From positions 496,001 through 560,000 of the forward strand of contig QQUE01000012.1 in NCBI GenBank assembly GCA_008501765.1: 64,000 bases of DNA. The letters are read 5' to 3'. Position numbers and translations under genes: made by a program. Under the pieces are notes generated by a model. That model searched no databases. It worked only from the letters and a program-made list of their open reading frames with translations, and was not told the origin of the DNA. Origin of the DNA: Calditrichota bacterium (GTDB lineage: Bacteria > Zhuqueibacterota > Zhuqueibacteria > Zhuqueibacterales > Geothermadaptataceae). Position 1 is the stretch's first letter. Each line of letters begins with the position of its first letter. Of the stretch, positions 2,798 to 20,390 are shown piece by piece.

Positions 2798-2904
2798 AAA
2801 TACTACCTGTAATATTTCTACTTCAATAAGGAAAGCTAAACAATGGAATATTAACTACTTGGAAATTGATTGTTGCATGTTGTTTATTGGCTATTGATTC
2901 TTTT

Positions 2905-3330
2905 TCAATGGGTCGTCGTACCGTCGTGCAAATCCGTGAACACCTTGTCCACCGGTTCCCAGAGTTCGATTTTATTGCCTTCGGCATCCAGAATATGGAT
3001 AAATTTTCCGTATTCGTAGGTTTCGAGTTCATCGACGATTTCCACGCCCGCAGCTTTTAAATCTTCGATGAGCGCTTCGATATTTTCCACCCGGTAATTG
3101 ATCATAAATTCGCGCTTCGACGGATCAAAATATTTTGTATCTTGCGGGAAAGGACTCCACTGCAAATAGCCTTTTTGTTCCGGGTTATCCGTGCTGCGAA
3201 ACTCAAACAACGAGCCATATTCGTTGGTTTTCAAACCAAGATTTTTCTGATACCAATCTTTCATTTTATCCACATCTTTGCATTTAAAAAAAATACCACC
3301 GATGCCCGTTACTTTTTTTCGCTCTGCCAT
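2905..3330 (-). CDS. VOC (glyoxalase/bleomycin-resistance) superfamily protein
   Basis: 141 aa. Single-unit vicinal-oxygen-chelate fold: an N-terminal beta-alpha-beta stretch (GGIFFKCKDVDKMKDWYQKN), a central 'FMINYRVENIEALIEDLKAAG' type segment and the closing 'DAEGNKIELWEP' motif whose glutamate is the usual metal ligand. The family includes glyoxalase I, dioxygenases and resistance proteins; close relatives of this size are often annotated as glyoxalase-like and have no known substrate. No signal peptide, so cytosolic. The ATG has an AAAGGA ribosome site. It stands alone between the glycosidase and the phosphodiesterase genes with about 100 bases on either side. The fold is confident, the function open. 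Confidence 0.8.
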   Translation of the reverse strand: MAERKKVTGIGGIFFKCKDVDKMKDWYQKNLGLKTNEYGSLFEFRSTDNPEQKGYLQWSPFPQDTKYFDPSKREFMINYRVENIEALIEDLKAAGVEIVDELETYEYGKFIHILDAEGNKIELWEPVDKVFTDLHDGTTTH

Positions 3331-15539: not shown

Positions 15540-16796
15540 TCAAGGTAAAATCCACGGGGCCCGCATCGGCTGATCGATCAATCGATTAGCAGCATCGTCA
15601 TCGATAAATTGTTGTTTTACCGGATCGAAATGCAGTTTGCGTCCAAGCTGGATGGCAATTTTGCTGAGATTCACCAGCGTGGCAGAGCGATGGCCGTTTT
15701 GCTCGTTCAGCGCAAATTTCTGCCGATTTTTGACCGCATCGATGAACTCAATTAGTTGCGGTTCGGGATCTGGCAGGCTGGCGAGCTTTTTTGCTAAATC
15801 CGGAATATCCGATTTCATATCGCGGAAAATTTTGCCATCGGGGCCTTCGATAAACGGCGCATCTTTATCCTTTGCCGCGCCATCCAGAATTATTTCGCAA
15901 CCATCTGCATATTTCATCGAAATTCGTCGCCAGGAGCCGACTGCATCCGGGTGCGCTTGTGGGGCATCGACATCAATTTCCACCGGGCTGGTATCGTCTT
16001 TTCCCAAAATATACTGGGCCGGATCGAGATAGTGCTGTCCCATATCACCAACGCCACCGCCATCGTAATCCCAGTAGCCACGAAATGTAGCATGCACCCG
16101 GTGGGCGTGATACGGCTTGTATGGTGCCGGTCCGAGCCACATGTCATAATCGAGCTCTTCGGGAATCCATTCGGGATTGGCCTGCGTCAGACCGCTCCAG
16201 TAAAATTTCCATTCAAATCCCTGATATTTGCCAATTGTTATTTTCAAAGGCCATCCCAACAACCCATTCAACACGGCTTTTTTCACAGGTGCAACATGGG
16301 TTCCGAGCCGGTAAAAATCACTGCGAAAACGAAACCAGGTATTGATACGAAAAATTGAACCGTTGCGTTTGACAGCTTCGACAACTTTTTTGCCCTCGCC
16401 AATGGTGCGCGTCATCGGTTTTTCACACCAGATATCTTTGCCGGCATCGGCAGCCATCACCGACATCAGCGCATGCCAATGGGGTGGTGTTGCGATATGA
16501 ATAATATCAACATCTTGCCGCTGTAAAACTTCACGAAAATCGTGGTAACCTGTTACATCCCGGTCCACCATATTCAAAGCGCGGTCAAGATGATTTTTGT
16601 CGACATCACAGACGGCGAGCAATCGGGAGTTTTGCAGCCGGGCGTGCCAGCGTCCCATTCCGCCGACACCGATCACTGCGCGGGTGAGTTCATCGCTAGG
16701 CGCGGTGAAACCACTGCCACCCAAAACGTGACGGGGAATTATCGTGAATGCGGCCGAAACACCGGCGGTTTTTTTCAGAAAATTTCTTCGATTCAT
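15540..16796 (-). CDS. Tat-exported Gfo/Idh/MocA oxidoreductase (copy 2)
   Basis: 418 aa. Twin-arginine-type signal (MNRRNFLKKTAGVSAAF), a Rossmann GVGGMGRWHA motif near 43, the family EKP motif in DIWCEKPMTR, and the catalytic-domain segment GGGVGDMGQHYLD. Its stop lies 62 bases from the start of the HEAT-DUF1080 gene downstream, so oxidation and hydrolysis steps are probably co-expressed. The permease gene ends about 110 bases upstream of this gene. Function by family: NAD(P)-linked oxidation or reduction of a sugar or cyclitol; working outside the cytoplasm it would need a tightly bound cofactor. Substrate unknown. Confidence 0.9.
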   Translation of the reverse strand: MNRRNFLKKTAGVSAAFTIIPRHVLGGSGFTAPSDELTRAVIGVGGMGRWHARLQNSRLLAVCDVDKNHLDRALNMVDRDVTGYHDFREVLQRQDVDIIHIATPPHWHALMSVMAADAGKDIWCEKPMTRTIGEGKKVVEAVKRNGSIFRINTWFRFRSDFYRLGTHVAPVKKAVLNGLLGWPLKITIGKYQGFEWKFYWSGLTQANPEWIPEELDYDMWLGPAPYKPYHAHRVHATFRGYWDYDGGGVGDMGQHYLDPAQYILGKDDTSPVEIDVDAPQAHPDAVGSWRRISMKYADGCEIILDGAAKDKDAPFIEGPDGKIFRDMKSDIPDLAKKLASLPDPEPQLIEFIDAVKNRQKFALNEQNGHRSATLVNLSKIAIQLGRKLHFDPVKQQFIDDDAANRLIDQPMRAPWILP

Positions 16797-16874
16797 TGAA
16801 TTCTACTCAATGTTAAAATTGATGATTTTAATTTTTTTTGTTGTCTGACTATTGTGTTTGAAATACAACAAAGA

Positions 16875-16904
16875 GGTAGAGGCAGGCCACAAGGGCCTGC
16901 GCTA
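16875..16904. repeat. REP-like hairpin after the permease gene
   Basis: Arms GTAGAGGCAGGCC and GGGCCTGCGCTAC around a four-base loop, four bases beyond the permease stop codon. There is no T-run on the minus strand, so it is better read as an extragenic palindrome (possibly blocking 3' exonucleases) than as a classical terminator. Confidence 0.65.
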
Positions 16905-16908
16905 CAAT

Positions 16909-18132
16909 TTACTGAATTTGTGCCTGTGCCTTATCTGCTGATTTATCATTGAACGTAACTAAAAACAGCAATGATATTGCAGCGGCAAAAATACACGGGA
17001 TCCACCAAATCGTTGGCCAGTCCATAATACCAGCTGCGGTATTCATATCGACCAATTTACCGGCTAATTTTGTACCCAAACTCATACCGATGCCATAAGT
17101 TACCAGGGCGATAAATCCCTGCGCACTGGCGCGGATTTCAATACCAGCAACTTTGTCGACATAAATCTGGCCGGTGACGAAAAAGAAATCATAACAGATT
17201 CCGTGCAGCAGGATGCCGCCATAAAGCATCCAAACATTGGCTCCGAGGTCGCCTAAAGCAAACATGGCATAGCGAACGACCCAGGCAATCATACCGACGA
17301 GCAACATTTTCTTTACTCCGAGACGAACAAAAAAGAACGGCATCACCAGCATGAAAAGGACCTCGGACATTTGCCCGAGGGATTGTTTTGCGGCCACGTA
17401 TTCCATGCCAATATTGTTAAAAAACAGATTGGCGAAGCTGTAATAAAATGCCAGTGGGATGCAAATGAGCAGGGATGAAAGTGTAAAGACAAGAAAGGAA
17501 CGTTCTTTCATCAATTTGAGCGCTTTCAGACCGAGAATATCGCTGATGGTGAATTTTTTCCCGGCATCTTTCGGTGGCGTATTCGGCAGGCTGAAGGAAT
17601 ACAATCCCATAATGAGCGATGCGGCAGCGGCCATTTTCATCGGTATCGCTGTTGCTTCGACATTTTTGAAAAATCCGCCTAAAACGAAACTGATAACAAG
17701 TCCGGCGACAATCCAGCCCAACGTTCCCCAGACGCGTACCTTCGGGAATTCCTTATCCGGGCTTTCCATTTGATTAAACGAGATGGCATTGACAAGCGCC
17801 AGGGTCGGCATGTAACACAAATTAAAAATGAGCATGAGTAAAATAAATGGCACCAGCGCTGTTGTTTCTGCCGCAAAATACATGACGACCGCGCCAATCA
17901 AATGCAATGTGCCCATCACTTTTTCTGAAGAAAAAAAGCGGTCCGCAACGATGCCGATAAAAAATGGCGAAAATATCGCGGCTACCCAGGTTGTCAAATA
18001 AGCGTTGCCGATATTATCCCCGGAAAAATTGATGCTGTTAAGAAATGTCCCCAGCGTCACTGCCCAGGCGCCCCAGACAAAAAACTGTAGAAACATCATG
18101 ATGCTGAGTTGAGAATAGACTTTTTTACTCAC
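16909..18132 (-). CDS. MFS permease, nucleoside:H+ symporter (NHS/NupG-like) type
   Basis: 407 aa, about 12 hydrophobic helices. The N-terminus (SQLSIMMFLQFFVWGAWAVT) and the 'FFIGIVADRFFSSEKVMG' loop are characteristic of NHS-family major-facilitator carriers related to NupG/XapB. In clusters of Gfo/Idh/MocA and DUF1080 genes such carriers are likely to import sugars or keto-sugars rather than nucleosides; that is inference from context. It begins with GTG, preceded by a strong GGAGG five bases away. A four-helix-bundle gene on a possible mobile element sits between this gene and the next oxidoreductase upstream, so any original cotranscription may have been interrupted. Confidence 0.85.
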   Translation of the reverse strand: MSKKVYSQLSIMMFLQFFVWGAWAVTLGTFLNSINFSGDNIGNAYLTTWVAAIFSPFFIGIVADRFFSSEKVMGTLHLIGAVVMYFAAETTALVPFILLMLIFNLCYMPTLALVNAISFNQMESPDKEFPKVRVWGTLGWIVAGLVISFVLGGFFKNVEATAIPMKMAAAASLIMGLYSFSLPNTPPKDAGKKFTISDILGLKALKLMKERSFLVFTLSSLLICIPLAFYYSFANLFFNNIGMEYVAAKQSLGQMSEVLFMLVMPFFFVRLGVKKMLLVGMIAWVVRYAMFALGDLGANVWMLYGGILLHGICYDFFFVTGQIYVDKVAGIEIRASAQGFIALVTYGIGMSLGTKLAGKLVDMNTAAGIMDWPTIWWIPCIFAAAISLLFLVTFNDKSADKAQAQIQ

Positions 18133-18150
18133 ACGACCTCCGGAAAAGAT

Positions 18151-18710
18151 TCAATATCCAATAGTCAATATCCAACAACCAATGTCCAAGTATTTGATTT
18201 GAAAATTGGTAATTTAAGTTGGGGTTGATTATTAAAAGATTTTCAGTTTCTTTTTTTAACTGTTTGGATGCTTTTGAAAAATATTGCGATAAGTTCTTCC
18301 GTTTCTTCGAGCAACGGAAGAACTTTCGTATCTGGTTTAATTAATTCAGCACGAACTATTATCTTAAGCCAGATATTTGTTTCGCGTAATTCTTTGAGCC
18401 CAATTTTCATTTTATGAATAAAATCTTTTGTTGATTCGGCGCTCTGCGCTTCGCCATAGTTTGCAGCTGGGCTGGTTCCACTCCGCAAAATTTGTCCACG
18501 AATATGTTGTCCGATATTTAAATTCGGCAATGATTCAGCCAATTTTATAATTCTTACAGCATAATCCACCAAACGATCTTCTAAATCGAACTTTTGCTTG
18601 CTCATTGCCCCACCCCTTTTTTTCAATCTCCAACAATCAACACACTATGCTAAAGTATTCTTATTTGCATATTGCATATTGGATATTGGTTATTGAATAT
18701 TGATTATTGA
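18151..18710. mobile_element. Candidate IVS-like element carrying an S23 four-helix-bundle gene
   Basis: A segment of about 560 bases with imperfect inverted ends of roughly 40 bases, made of AT-rich units of the type CAATATCCAATA / TATTGGATATTG (left end 18151-18190, right end 18671-18710). The only gene inside is the four-helix-bundle protein. The right end supplies the last codons of the neighbouring oxidoreductase gene (ending SIINIQ). S23-family genes are known from intervening sequences in 23S rRNA genes; this copy lies between protein genes. No transposase is present. Boundaries are estimated by eye. Confidence 0.5.
18243..18605 (-). CDS. Four-helix bundle protein, S23/IVS family
   Basis: 120 aa. 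Small all-alpha protein of the family encoded in 23S rRNA intervening sequences. The typical features are DLEDRLVDYAVRIIKLAE at the N-terminus, the central QILRSGTSPAANYGEAQ motif, and KMKIGLKELRETNIWLKII. Length is normal for the family (about 115-130 aa). ATG at 18605 is used; an in-frame TTG seven codons upstream is less likely. No biochemical role is established for the family. Inverted AT-rich repeats on both sides suggest the gene moves as a unit and is unrelated to its metabolic neighbours. Confidence 0.88.
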   Translation of the reverse strand: MSKQKFDLEDRLVDYAVRIIKLAESLPNLNIGQHIRGQILRSGTSPAANYGEAQSAESTKDFIHKMKIGLKELRETNIWLKIIVRAELIKPDTKVLPLLEETEELIAIFFKSIQTVKKRN

Positions 18711-19760
18711 TTTTTTTCGCACCGATTCATCCGCAGCCAACACTATTTTCAAGCTATTCACCGCATCGTCGAGATGCTCTGTCAGGTCGAGATTTTCTGT
18801 GATGGCGCGCAGAAAATAGGCCTGTTCGCGGTTGCAGAGTTCCTGATGATCGGGCTCATCATCGGTGTTGATCAATTCATCCTTTTCTGTGAATTGCCCA
18901 TTGCTGTCTGTGGTTGACTTGTGAAGTAACAAAGCACTCGTTTTTGTGTGGGAATCGATATCCGACGAATCACCGGCGCCTTCTGCCTGCTTTTCGGTGA
19001 TACTGACACAGCCTTTCGGTCCGATCACATCTTTGACAAAAAAGGCCGTCTGGCTCATCATCGGACCCCAGCCGGCCTCGTACCAGCCAATCGATCCGTC
19101 GGCAAATGCAACCTGCAGTTGGCCGTAATTATACATTTCCTGGTCAATTTCATCGCTCAAGCGCGCCCCGATTGCCTGCACACGCACAGGTTTGGAACGT
19201 GTCATCTGGCACATCACATCGACGTAGTGCACGCCGCAATCAACGATGGGTGAGATAGATGACATGAGCTTTTTGTGGGTCTGCCATTCTTTGCCGCTGC
19301 TCTGCTGATTGAGATTCATGCGCATCACCAGCGGTTTTCCCAAACTTTGAGCAATTTCTGTAAATTTAGCCCAGGCCGGGTGCACGCGTAAAATATAGCC
19401 GACGACAATTTTTAACCGCATTTTTTGAGCCAGTGCAACCAATTTCTTTGCGTCATCAACGGTCGATGCCAACGGTTTTTCAACGAAGACATGCACGCCT
19501 TTTTCAAGACATTTTTTGGTGATTTCATAATGGGTGTCGGGGTACGTGCAAACTGCAACGGCATCCGGATTTACCTGCGCGAACGCTTCTTCAATTGTGG
19601 TAAATTCGGCGATTCCGCCTAATTCCGTTGCCAGGGAATTGCTGCTCGCTTTGTTCGAATCGACCAGTCCGATTAACTCAAATCCCGGCAACTTGTGGTA
19701 GGCGCGGGCGTGCGAAGATCCCATATTTCCACAACCGACAACGACGACTTTTATTTTCAC
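18690..19760 (-). CDS. Cytosolic Gfo/Idh/MocA oxidoreductase (copy 3)
   Basis: 356 aa with no signal peptide, so one of the two cytosolic members. The Rossmann motif VVVVGCGNMGSSHARAY is at the very N-terminus, the EKP motif is in HVFVEKPLAST, and the catalytic-domain segment is ISPIVDCGVHYVDVM. GTG start with AAGGA upstream. It begins three bases after the stop of the methyltransferase gene, so the two are translationally linked. Its last codons (SIINIQ) lie within the inverted repeat of the adjacent IVS-like element, so the natural C-terminus may have been altered by the insertion. Function by family: NAD(P)-dependent sugar or inositol dehydrogenase. Confidence 0.88.
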   Translation of the reverse strand: MKIKVVVVGCGNMGSSHARAYHKLPGFELIGLVDSNKASSNSLATELGGIAEFTTIEEAFAQVNPDAVAVCTYPDTHYEITKKCLEKGVHVFVEKPLASTVDDAKKLVALAQKMRLKIVVGYILRVHPAWAKFTEIAQSLGKPLVMRMNLNQQSSGKEWQTHKKLMSSISPIVDCGVHYVDVMCQMTRSKPVRVQAIGARLSDEIDQEMYNYGQLQVAFADGSIGWYEAGWGPMMSQTAFFVKDVIGPKGCVSITEKQAEGAGDSSDIDSHTKTSALLLHKSTTDSNGQFTEKDELINTDDEPDHQELCNREQAYFLRAITENLDLTEHLDDAVNSLKIVLAADESVRKKSIINIQ

Positions 19761-19763
19761 AGT

Positions 19764-20390
19764 TTATTCCTTCTCAAAAATAAATGAAATTAATCGCGGT
19801 AATTCTGCTTTATCTTCCGAATCAAACCATTCGTGCATTCCATAAAATTTTAAATTATTGCTGTGCGCTGCAGCCATAAAATCAGAAATATGATGGTTAA
19901 AAGTTTCAAGTTCGAATGTAGAATTTTCTTTTTTAAATCGCGCTTTTGTGCCTGTGTACTGCTTGAATGGGTGCAGTTCGCAAATGTAAAATTTTCCCAT
20001 TGGCTGCAACGCACTCTGCACCTGAGAAAATATATCAGATAAATTTTCAATGTGCTCCAATACCAGGCTGCATGTAACCAGATCAAATTTTTCGTTCAGA
20101 AATTGCCAGGGTTTTGTTAAATCTGCCTGATAAAATTCAACTTTTGCAGATTTGATTTTCTCACGAGCTGCTTGCAGCATTTCCGGTGAAAAGTCAACGC
20201 CAACCAGCTTTTCACATTTTTCCAGCAGCCAGGTGGTGTTTTTTCCGGTACCGCATCCCAATTCCAAAACAGAGGAAAATGAGAACGGCGCCAGTAATTC
20301 CTGCCCGACTTCCTTTTCTAAATCACGGGTTTTATTTTTGTTGGAATCATAAAACCGGGCCCAATAATCGTATGCTTCATCAATTTTCAT
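19764..20390 (-). CDS. Class I SAM-dependent methyltransferase
   Basis: 208 aa. SAM-binding motif I is VLELGCGTGKNTTWL at about 40, followed by the acidic residue in LVGVDFSPEML and the motif in DLVTCSLVLEHI. This is the methyltransferase-11/25 type common among small-molecule and biosynthetic methylases; the target cannot be predicted. It is cytosolic and starts with ATG at 20390. It is the first gene of a tight two-gene unit with the cytosolic oxidoreductase, three bases downstream, which suggests a joint function, perhaps modification or demodification of a methylated sugar; that is speculation. Confidence 0.85.
   Translation of the reverse strand: MKIDEAYDYWARFYDSNKNKTRDLEKEVGQELLAPFSFSSVLELGCGTGKNTTWLLEKCEKLVGVDFSPEMLQAAREKIKSAKVEFYQADLTKPWQFLNEKFDLVTCSLVLEHIENLSDIFSQVQSALQPMGKFYICELHPFKQYTGTKARFKKENSTFELETFNHHISDFMAAAHSNNLKFYGMHEWFDSEDKAELPRLISFIFEKE

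Follow-up and report, generated by a model that had tools for sequence, protein, structure and literature searches.

S23 genes across bacteria lie in mobile units of about 430 bases with inverted heptamer-array ends

S23 genes, heptamer repeats and related elements

Genes for S23 are encoded within intervening sequences (IVS) of the 23S rRNA of Leptospira, Coxiella, Xanthomonas and Brucella, and we know of no explanation, since the 1990s, of how these sequences move. A related protein, Avd of the diversity-generating retroelements (DGR), is likewise a pentameric four-helix bundle. RAYT is a Y1 (HUH) transposase, and the REPs bear a GTAG/CGTC tag; the definition of a MITE usually rests on the ends of some known transposon.

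The IVS of Coxiella measures 428-444 nt, has a 28-bp terminal stem and is excised by RNase III; GACAGAT heptamers stand in tandem just before its S23 gene, in a number that varies between strains (Warrier et al., 2016; PMC4990558). Its function and origin were termed unclear in that study, in which S23 is described as a toroidal homopentamer (PMC4990558), and the S23 structures PDB 2GSC and 2RLD hold five chains each. In many bacterial genomes heptamers are reported to be more common than repeats of any other length from 5 to 11 nt, and slippage has been given as their cause (Mrazek, 2007, as cited in PMC4692102 and PMC4679880), special cases being TAACTGA (PMC4679880) and the GGACCGG of Geobacter (PMC2700814). 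The heptanucleotide STRR of Calothrix and Nostoc, TAACTGA, GGGNATC and GGACCGG have the same period as the arrays described below, including those beside S23 genes on cyanobacterial plasmids, yet this literature treats the repeats alone, in terms of slippage, G4 or regulation, without a link to S23. In the openly searchable literature, no report of a general association of S23 genes with heptamer arrays was found, the Coxiella detail excepted.

The S23 locus of the window

The window analysed here, a stretch of 64,000 nucleotides from a Calditrichota bacterium, carries on its minus strand a gene for a Gfo/Idh/MocA oxidoreductase (18690..19760), the upstream host gene; a gene with an ATG start for an S23/four-helix-bundle protein of 120 residues (18243..18605); and, as the downstream host gene, one for a nucleoside:H+ symporter of the MFS (16909..18132; PF03825, 3.6e-119). 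The S23 protein exceeds the curated cut-offs of both PF05635 (1.6e-14; 54.4 bits against 33.8) and TIGR02436 (5e-25; 87.8 bits against 24) and hence belongs to the S23/23S_rRNA_IVP family, its nearest solved structure being PDB 2RLD (1.8e-16). Unlike Avd in a DGR, it has no reverse transcriptase (RT) gene adjoining, and PF05635 is the sole Pfam family that it matches; the only RVT_1 match of the genome, at C3:410893, is about 103 kb away. That RT gene (C3:410893-411516) lies 2.8 kb downstream of the S23 gene at locus L048. The S23 gene of L006, with an RT 2.8 kb downstream, was considered as the Avd of a DGR and set aside, no DGR having been demonstrated.

The S23 gene is bounded by two arrays of a heptamer of the CAATATC type. 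The upstream array (18664..18716, minus strand; sense TCAATAATCAATATTCAATAACCAATATCCAATATGCAATATGC) has a lag-7 identity of 0.86, and the downstream array (18151..18192, minus strand; sense CTTGGACATTGGTTGTTGGATATTGACTATTGGATATTGA), which is inverted with respect to it, one of 0.69; neither value was reached in any of 1000 shuffles, and lags other than 7 gave 0.31-0.46, lag 14 excepted. Over 47 nt the arms (18146-18192 and 18662-18708) have a complementarity of 77%, and the upstream arm scores 22 against the reverse complement of the downstream arm, where the maximum in 1000 dinucleotide shuffles was 13. The upstream array is one of only two found at the strictest threshold in 460 kb of the window contig. 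The first-pass annotation had described inverted AT-rich repeats around S23; the inversion holds (no shuffle out of 1000 did as well), but each arm is an array of period 7 and not plain AT-rich sequence. It had also noted that the right repeat forms the last codons of the oxidoreductase, and the upstream array does overlap the SIINIQ* codons. In the same-genus ortholog without an adjoining S23 gene, however, the C-terminus is RSVREGVAIEIQ* and the length is equal, so that the oxidoreductase has been neither truncated nor extended.

Between the upstream array and the gene, a short inverted arm (18623..18643, minus strand), recognized from the sequence and from family D1, forms a hairpin with that array; it stands just 5' of the ribosome-binding site, the presumed Shine-Dalgarno sequence being GGGGTGGGG (sense; 18608..18616, minus strand), and a similar run of G is also present 5' of the S23 start codons in L003, L005 and L006. 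On the downstream side, the loop region CCAATTTTCAAATCAAATACTTGG (18189..18213, minus strand) is common to dispersed gene-less hairpins of the genus. At 2865..2906 (strand not assigned), an array of the heptamer type seen at the window's S23 gene stands alone, with no S23 gene beside it.

The locus resembles the rRNA IVS in its protein family, in the complementary ends around the S23 ORF, in its sense orientation within the host transcript and, as regards Coxiella, in the heptamers before S23. It differs in lying between protein genes: no Rfam match was obtained for positions 16500-20000 of the window even at E up to 1. Nor are inverted heptamer-array ends described as a general feature of IVS in PMC4990558.

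Heptamer arrays around S23 genes in other bacteria

Five S23 genes are present in the window genome (G000), each with its own heptamer (of the GTAACGT, TTAGGTG, CCAACAG/CTAACTG, CATTTTT and CAATATC types) and each, by inspection, between heptamer-like arrays or hairpins. Throughout 460 kb of the window contig, lag-7 arrays are the clearest excess among all periods, and most of them fall at the three S23 loci of that stretch. The window copy is accordingly not an isolated curiosity. Elsewhere in this genome, a perfect solo array, (AGCCAAT)11, is found at G000:C3:444353-444434, its heptamer matching that in the arms around the S23 gene at C3:216670, and a tandem series of some six ~148-nt units, all of them containing heptamer-like hairpins, lies directly 5' of another S23 gene (L048:2820-3740; G000:C3:406824-407738).

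Beyond this genome, two sets of loci were assembled, many of the genomes being MAGs with short contigs. The class set comprises 119 S23 genes from the class of the window organism; the named-genome set, obtained by a separate search, comprises 79 from more than 15 phyla (Cyanobacteria, Proteobacteria, Bacteroidota, Planctomycetota, Acidobacteriota, Clostridia, Chloroflexi, Omnitrophota, Patescibacteria and others), and 20 of its loci, when searched with Rfam, gave no rRNA match. Lag-7 autocorrelation in the two flanks was 0.556 and 0.545 for the class set, against 0.363 farther away and 0.385 in shuffles, with lag 14 raised too and lag 8 slightly; for the named-genome set it was 0.617 and 0.563, against 0.376 in the control. 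Locus by locus, a periodicity or complementarity better than in all of 100 shuffles was detected at 87 of 119 class loci and at 70 of 79 named-genome loci, while by the same 100 shuffles each, 32 and 9 loci, respectively, had no significant signature. The repeats proposed by the first-pass annotation as a feature to be sought at other S23 genes are therefore present around most of them. The signal is limited to the 200 nt adjoining the S23 gene: there are 34-84 lag-7 windows per 1000 at 120 nt or less from the gene and ~1-7 beyond 300-500 nt, an enrichment within 120 nt of ~20-40 times. As a separate observation, the best period was 8 instead of 7 in ~13% of class-set flanks.

It could be held that these are ordinary heptamer arrays made by slippage, S23 genes being merely beside them. 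The number of repeats in an array does differ between relatives, and long perfect arrays exist without S23, (AGCCAAT)11 being an example; nevertheless, no lag-7 array was present in 274 kb from three S23-less genomes, the arms are inverted and mirrored, and they are gained and lost along with S23. This explanation is already disfavoured, and we regard it as most improbable.

The unit consists of an array of ~4-6 heptamers, the S23 gene and the same array inverted, ~420-450 bp in total. Copies differ in their heptamer but conserve the period of 7; a heptamer is common mainly to S23 proteins more than 60% identical. Inverted complementarity with a score of at least 12 was observed at 71% of named-genome loci, compared to 1.3% for arms cross-paired between loci. 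Unit for unit, one arm mirrors the other: at 116 of 119 loci the match is better than with the heptamer order shuffled in one arm, an effect whose size is inflated because the loci were picked for good match. In a minority of S23 genes (L244, L256, L292, L266 and L093) the arms are direct rather than inverted. A common heptamer consensus, YRGNNNN, is not claimed, its rotation-aligned information being just modestly above permuted controls.

With co-directional neighbours, S23 is in the sense orientation in 113 of 128 cases and antisense in 15 (p 9e-20), a bias which suggests expression of S23 by read-through from the host operon. The array 5' of S23 has its outer boundary at the stop codon of the preceding gene (median distance 0 nt; interquartile range -13 to +7; n=57), a closeness that is partly automatic because the arrays hold stop codons in several frames. 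Both this sense orientation in operons and the complementary arms flanking the gene would be expected of an RNA-level element like the rRNA IVS, in which the arms pair in the transcript for RNase III excision of the S23 mRNA or for translation control and movement is rare and incidental; a precedent is the Coxiella IVS, which is excised by RNase III and has a stem of 28 bp and, before S23, three GACAGAT heptamers (PMC4990558). Mismatches between the arms, however, give no support to selection of an RNA stem: G.U (179) is not in excess over A.C (240), which argues for inverted DNA ends and not for a stem selected in RNA. Direct-orientation arms in some copies and the dispersal of gene-less hairpins also speak against such an element, and a stem leaves the period of 7 unexplained, making this a rather improbable account of the units.

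Occupied sites, empty sites and the movement of the unit

One unit of ~447 nt is found in three genera of the class in copies that are 78-84% identical; the homology stops abruptly at the ends of the arrays, and the flanks are unrelated. Among these relatives of the window copy, the inverted ends delimit the inserted segment. Within the genus, an S23 unit stands between etfB and etfA in G000 and in the same-genus genome G002, while in a third genome of the genus, G001, the etfB-etfA gap is 67 nt and contains neither S23 nor arrays; the unit was also absent from this operon in the family and order relatives inspected. The etf-operon copy of G000 (L050; G000:C1:63140-63457) has an in-frame TAA that is not found in G002 and is a decaying copy. 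There is no clean empty site for the window locus, its two flanking genes being on different contigs in G001, and the flanks of L085 and L106 were not found in sister species when empty sites were sought.

Such sites bear on the proposal that S23 serves host regulation, binding heptamer arrays in the mRNA or DNA of many operons, with the arrays by its own gene as an autoregulatory site. It would fit the solo arrays elsewhere that match the heptamer of a resident S23, the arrays near ribosome-binding sites and MacGregor's regulation proposal for TAACTGA (PMC4679880). Yet the distribution is patchy, one genome has five heptamers, near-identical operons have empty sites, and the etf-operon copy with its internal TAA is decayed, and we attach very little probability to this proposal.

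The closest comparisons come from cyanobacterial plasmids, on which near-identical occupied and empty sites are found. The best pair is the occupied site on plasmid C of Trichormus variabilis and the empty sites on plasmids of Microchaete, Tolypothrix, Nostoc linckia, Aulosira and N. carneum, with flanks ~97.5-97.8% identical and a difference of 428 nt: the empty site reads GTTAAAAAGTAATTAACAAATAAATATG, and the occupied site reads GTTAAAAAGTAAT, then the unit, then GTAATTAACAAATAAATATG. The T. variabilis unit itself measures 423 bp. At a second plasmid site, the unit has entered the stop codon that ends the upstream gene, so that TTC TAG reads TTC TAA, and TTCTA stands on both sides; also at a cyanobacterial plasmid insertion site, the C-terminus of the neighbour has changed from EEEVE* to EEEE*. 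Altered C-termini or stop codons of neighbouring genes thus occur at these other sites, but not in the window oxidoreductase, with its unchanged length. The cyanobacterial plasmid unit recurs, 78-82% identical, in other flanks in Nostoc and Aulosira. Direct repeats of 4-5 nt at two junctions (GTAAT and TTCTA) could be microhomology between array and target; they suggest a target duplication of constant length, but ~190-nt gene-less MITE-like copies with the same ends did not bear this out, no consistent duplication being found in them.

Mobility of the unit with heptamer ends is, as judged from these comparisons, well supported. The empty sites whose existence the first-pass annotation had made a matter for checking occur both in the etf operon and on the plasmids, and, with units in unrelated flanks as well, the same flanks are not fixed in all relatives; its view of a mobile element outside rRNA with recognisable ends is thus supported by empty sites, unrelated flanks and the repeats at other S23 genes. 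Near-identical copies of a unit are few within any one genome, and the evidence thus bears on past movement. S23 was not found in phage records. In sum, S23 genes across bacteria sit in mobile units of ~430 bases with inverted heptamer-array ends, and the window copy is among them.

Several neighbouring features were recorded in addition. On plasmids of two cyanobacterial genera, Anabaena and Pseudanabaena, CRISPR operons carry an S23 unit in the gap from cas6 to cas4 (L251, type I-D, and L244), and in Dolichospermum (L350) a different repeat, GTAGGTTGGGTT, fills that gap. A dispersed repeat of ~180 nt (L106:2516-2697) adjoins an S23 unit and has ~20 matches in genome G037.

Gene-less derivatives of the flanking repeats are dispersed in the genus of the window organism. 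Hairpins with the window's heptamers and loop are found at ~20 places in G002 and at a few in G000 and G001, one of those in G001 being upstream of the symporter gene; none were found in three family members without S23. The layout is that of REP/RAYT (REPINs): the hairpins on either side of the gene also occur dispersed, with no gene between them, in the same genomes, and every gene has a repeat type of its own. The differences are that the gene between the arms encodes a four-helix bundle without a catalytic motif in place of a Y1 HUH transposase, that the ends are 7-nt arrays, and that Y1-free S23-bearing genomes exist. Gene-less relatives with the same ends as the unit (L358-L360) are short, dispersed and have inverted ends like MITEs, but no parent transposon is known for S23 units and target duplication is inconsistent.

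The existence of MITE-like derivatives, and of a unit with S23 as its sole gene and no catalytic motif, would also be compatible with a passenger moved in trans by an unrelated transposase or reverse transcriptase, S23 being cargo that aids persistence. The number of S23 genes correlates with that of RT (rho 0.53) and Y1 (0.37) genes, a relationship which genome size may confound. Among S23-bearing genomes at least 90% complete, however, ten are without RVT_1 and four without Y1, an obligatory RT or Y1 helper being rejected on the ground that S23-bearing genomes without the one or the other exist; furthermore, the arrays track the S23 family specifically, and heptamer type tracks S23 type. We consider a passenger unlikely, if less so than the RNA-level element.

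The explanation that we favour, with a confidence slightly above even, is a minimal mobile element with heptamer ends that its own S23 ring protein recognises. This role of S23 is inferred on three grounds: S23 is constantly associated with period 7, heptamer type matches S23 type, and its relatives form a five-subunit ring. S23, a homopentameric ring in solved relatives, would bind the heptamer array on DNA, perhaps with one 7-nt unit per subunit, and would bring both ends of the unit together, thereby marking it for insertion. To our knowledge S23 has no catalytic site, and the insertion chemistry must for that reason come from elsewhere; the cell or a different element may provide the insertion enzyme. 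The unit would be expressed by read-through of the host operon, as are the IVS copies in rRNA, and the hairpin derivatives may be mobilised in trans, much as REPs are by RAYT. More tentatively, and with rather less than even confidence, the units may constitute a new class of mobile element, delimited by inverted 7-nt arrays that are free in sequence and fixed in period and recognised by a pentameric non-catalytic ring at about one heptamer per subunit; this class would be the source of the rRNA IVS and of much of the heptanucleotide content of bacterial genomes.

The finding connects a gene with the 7-base repeats of bacterial genomes, which had long lacked an explanation, and two old puzzles are joined by it: the movement of the S23 IVS, and the origin of heptanucleotide arrays, for which mainly polymerase slippage had been offered. 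Both become testable because S23 genes lie between inverted arrays in many phyla and gene and arrays come and go together. For assay, the S23 unit offers ends that are defined, empty sites that occur naturally, and just one protein, of 120 residues.
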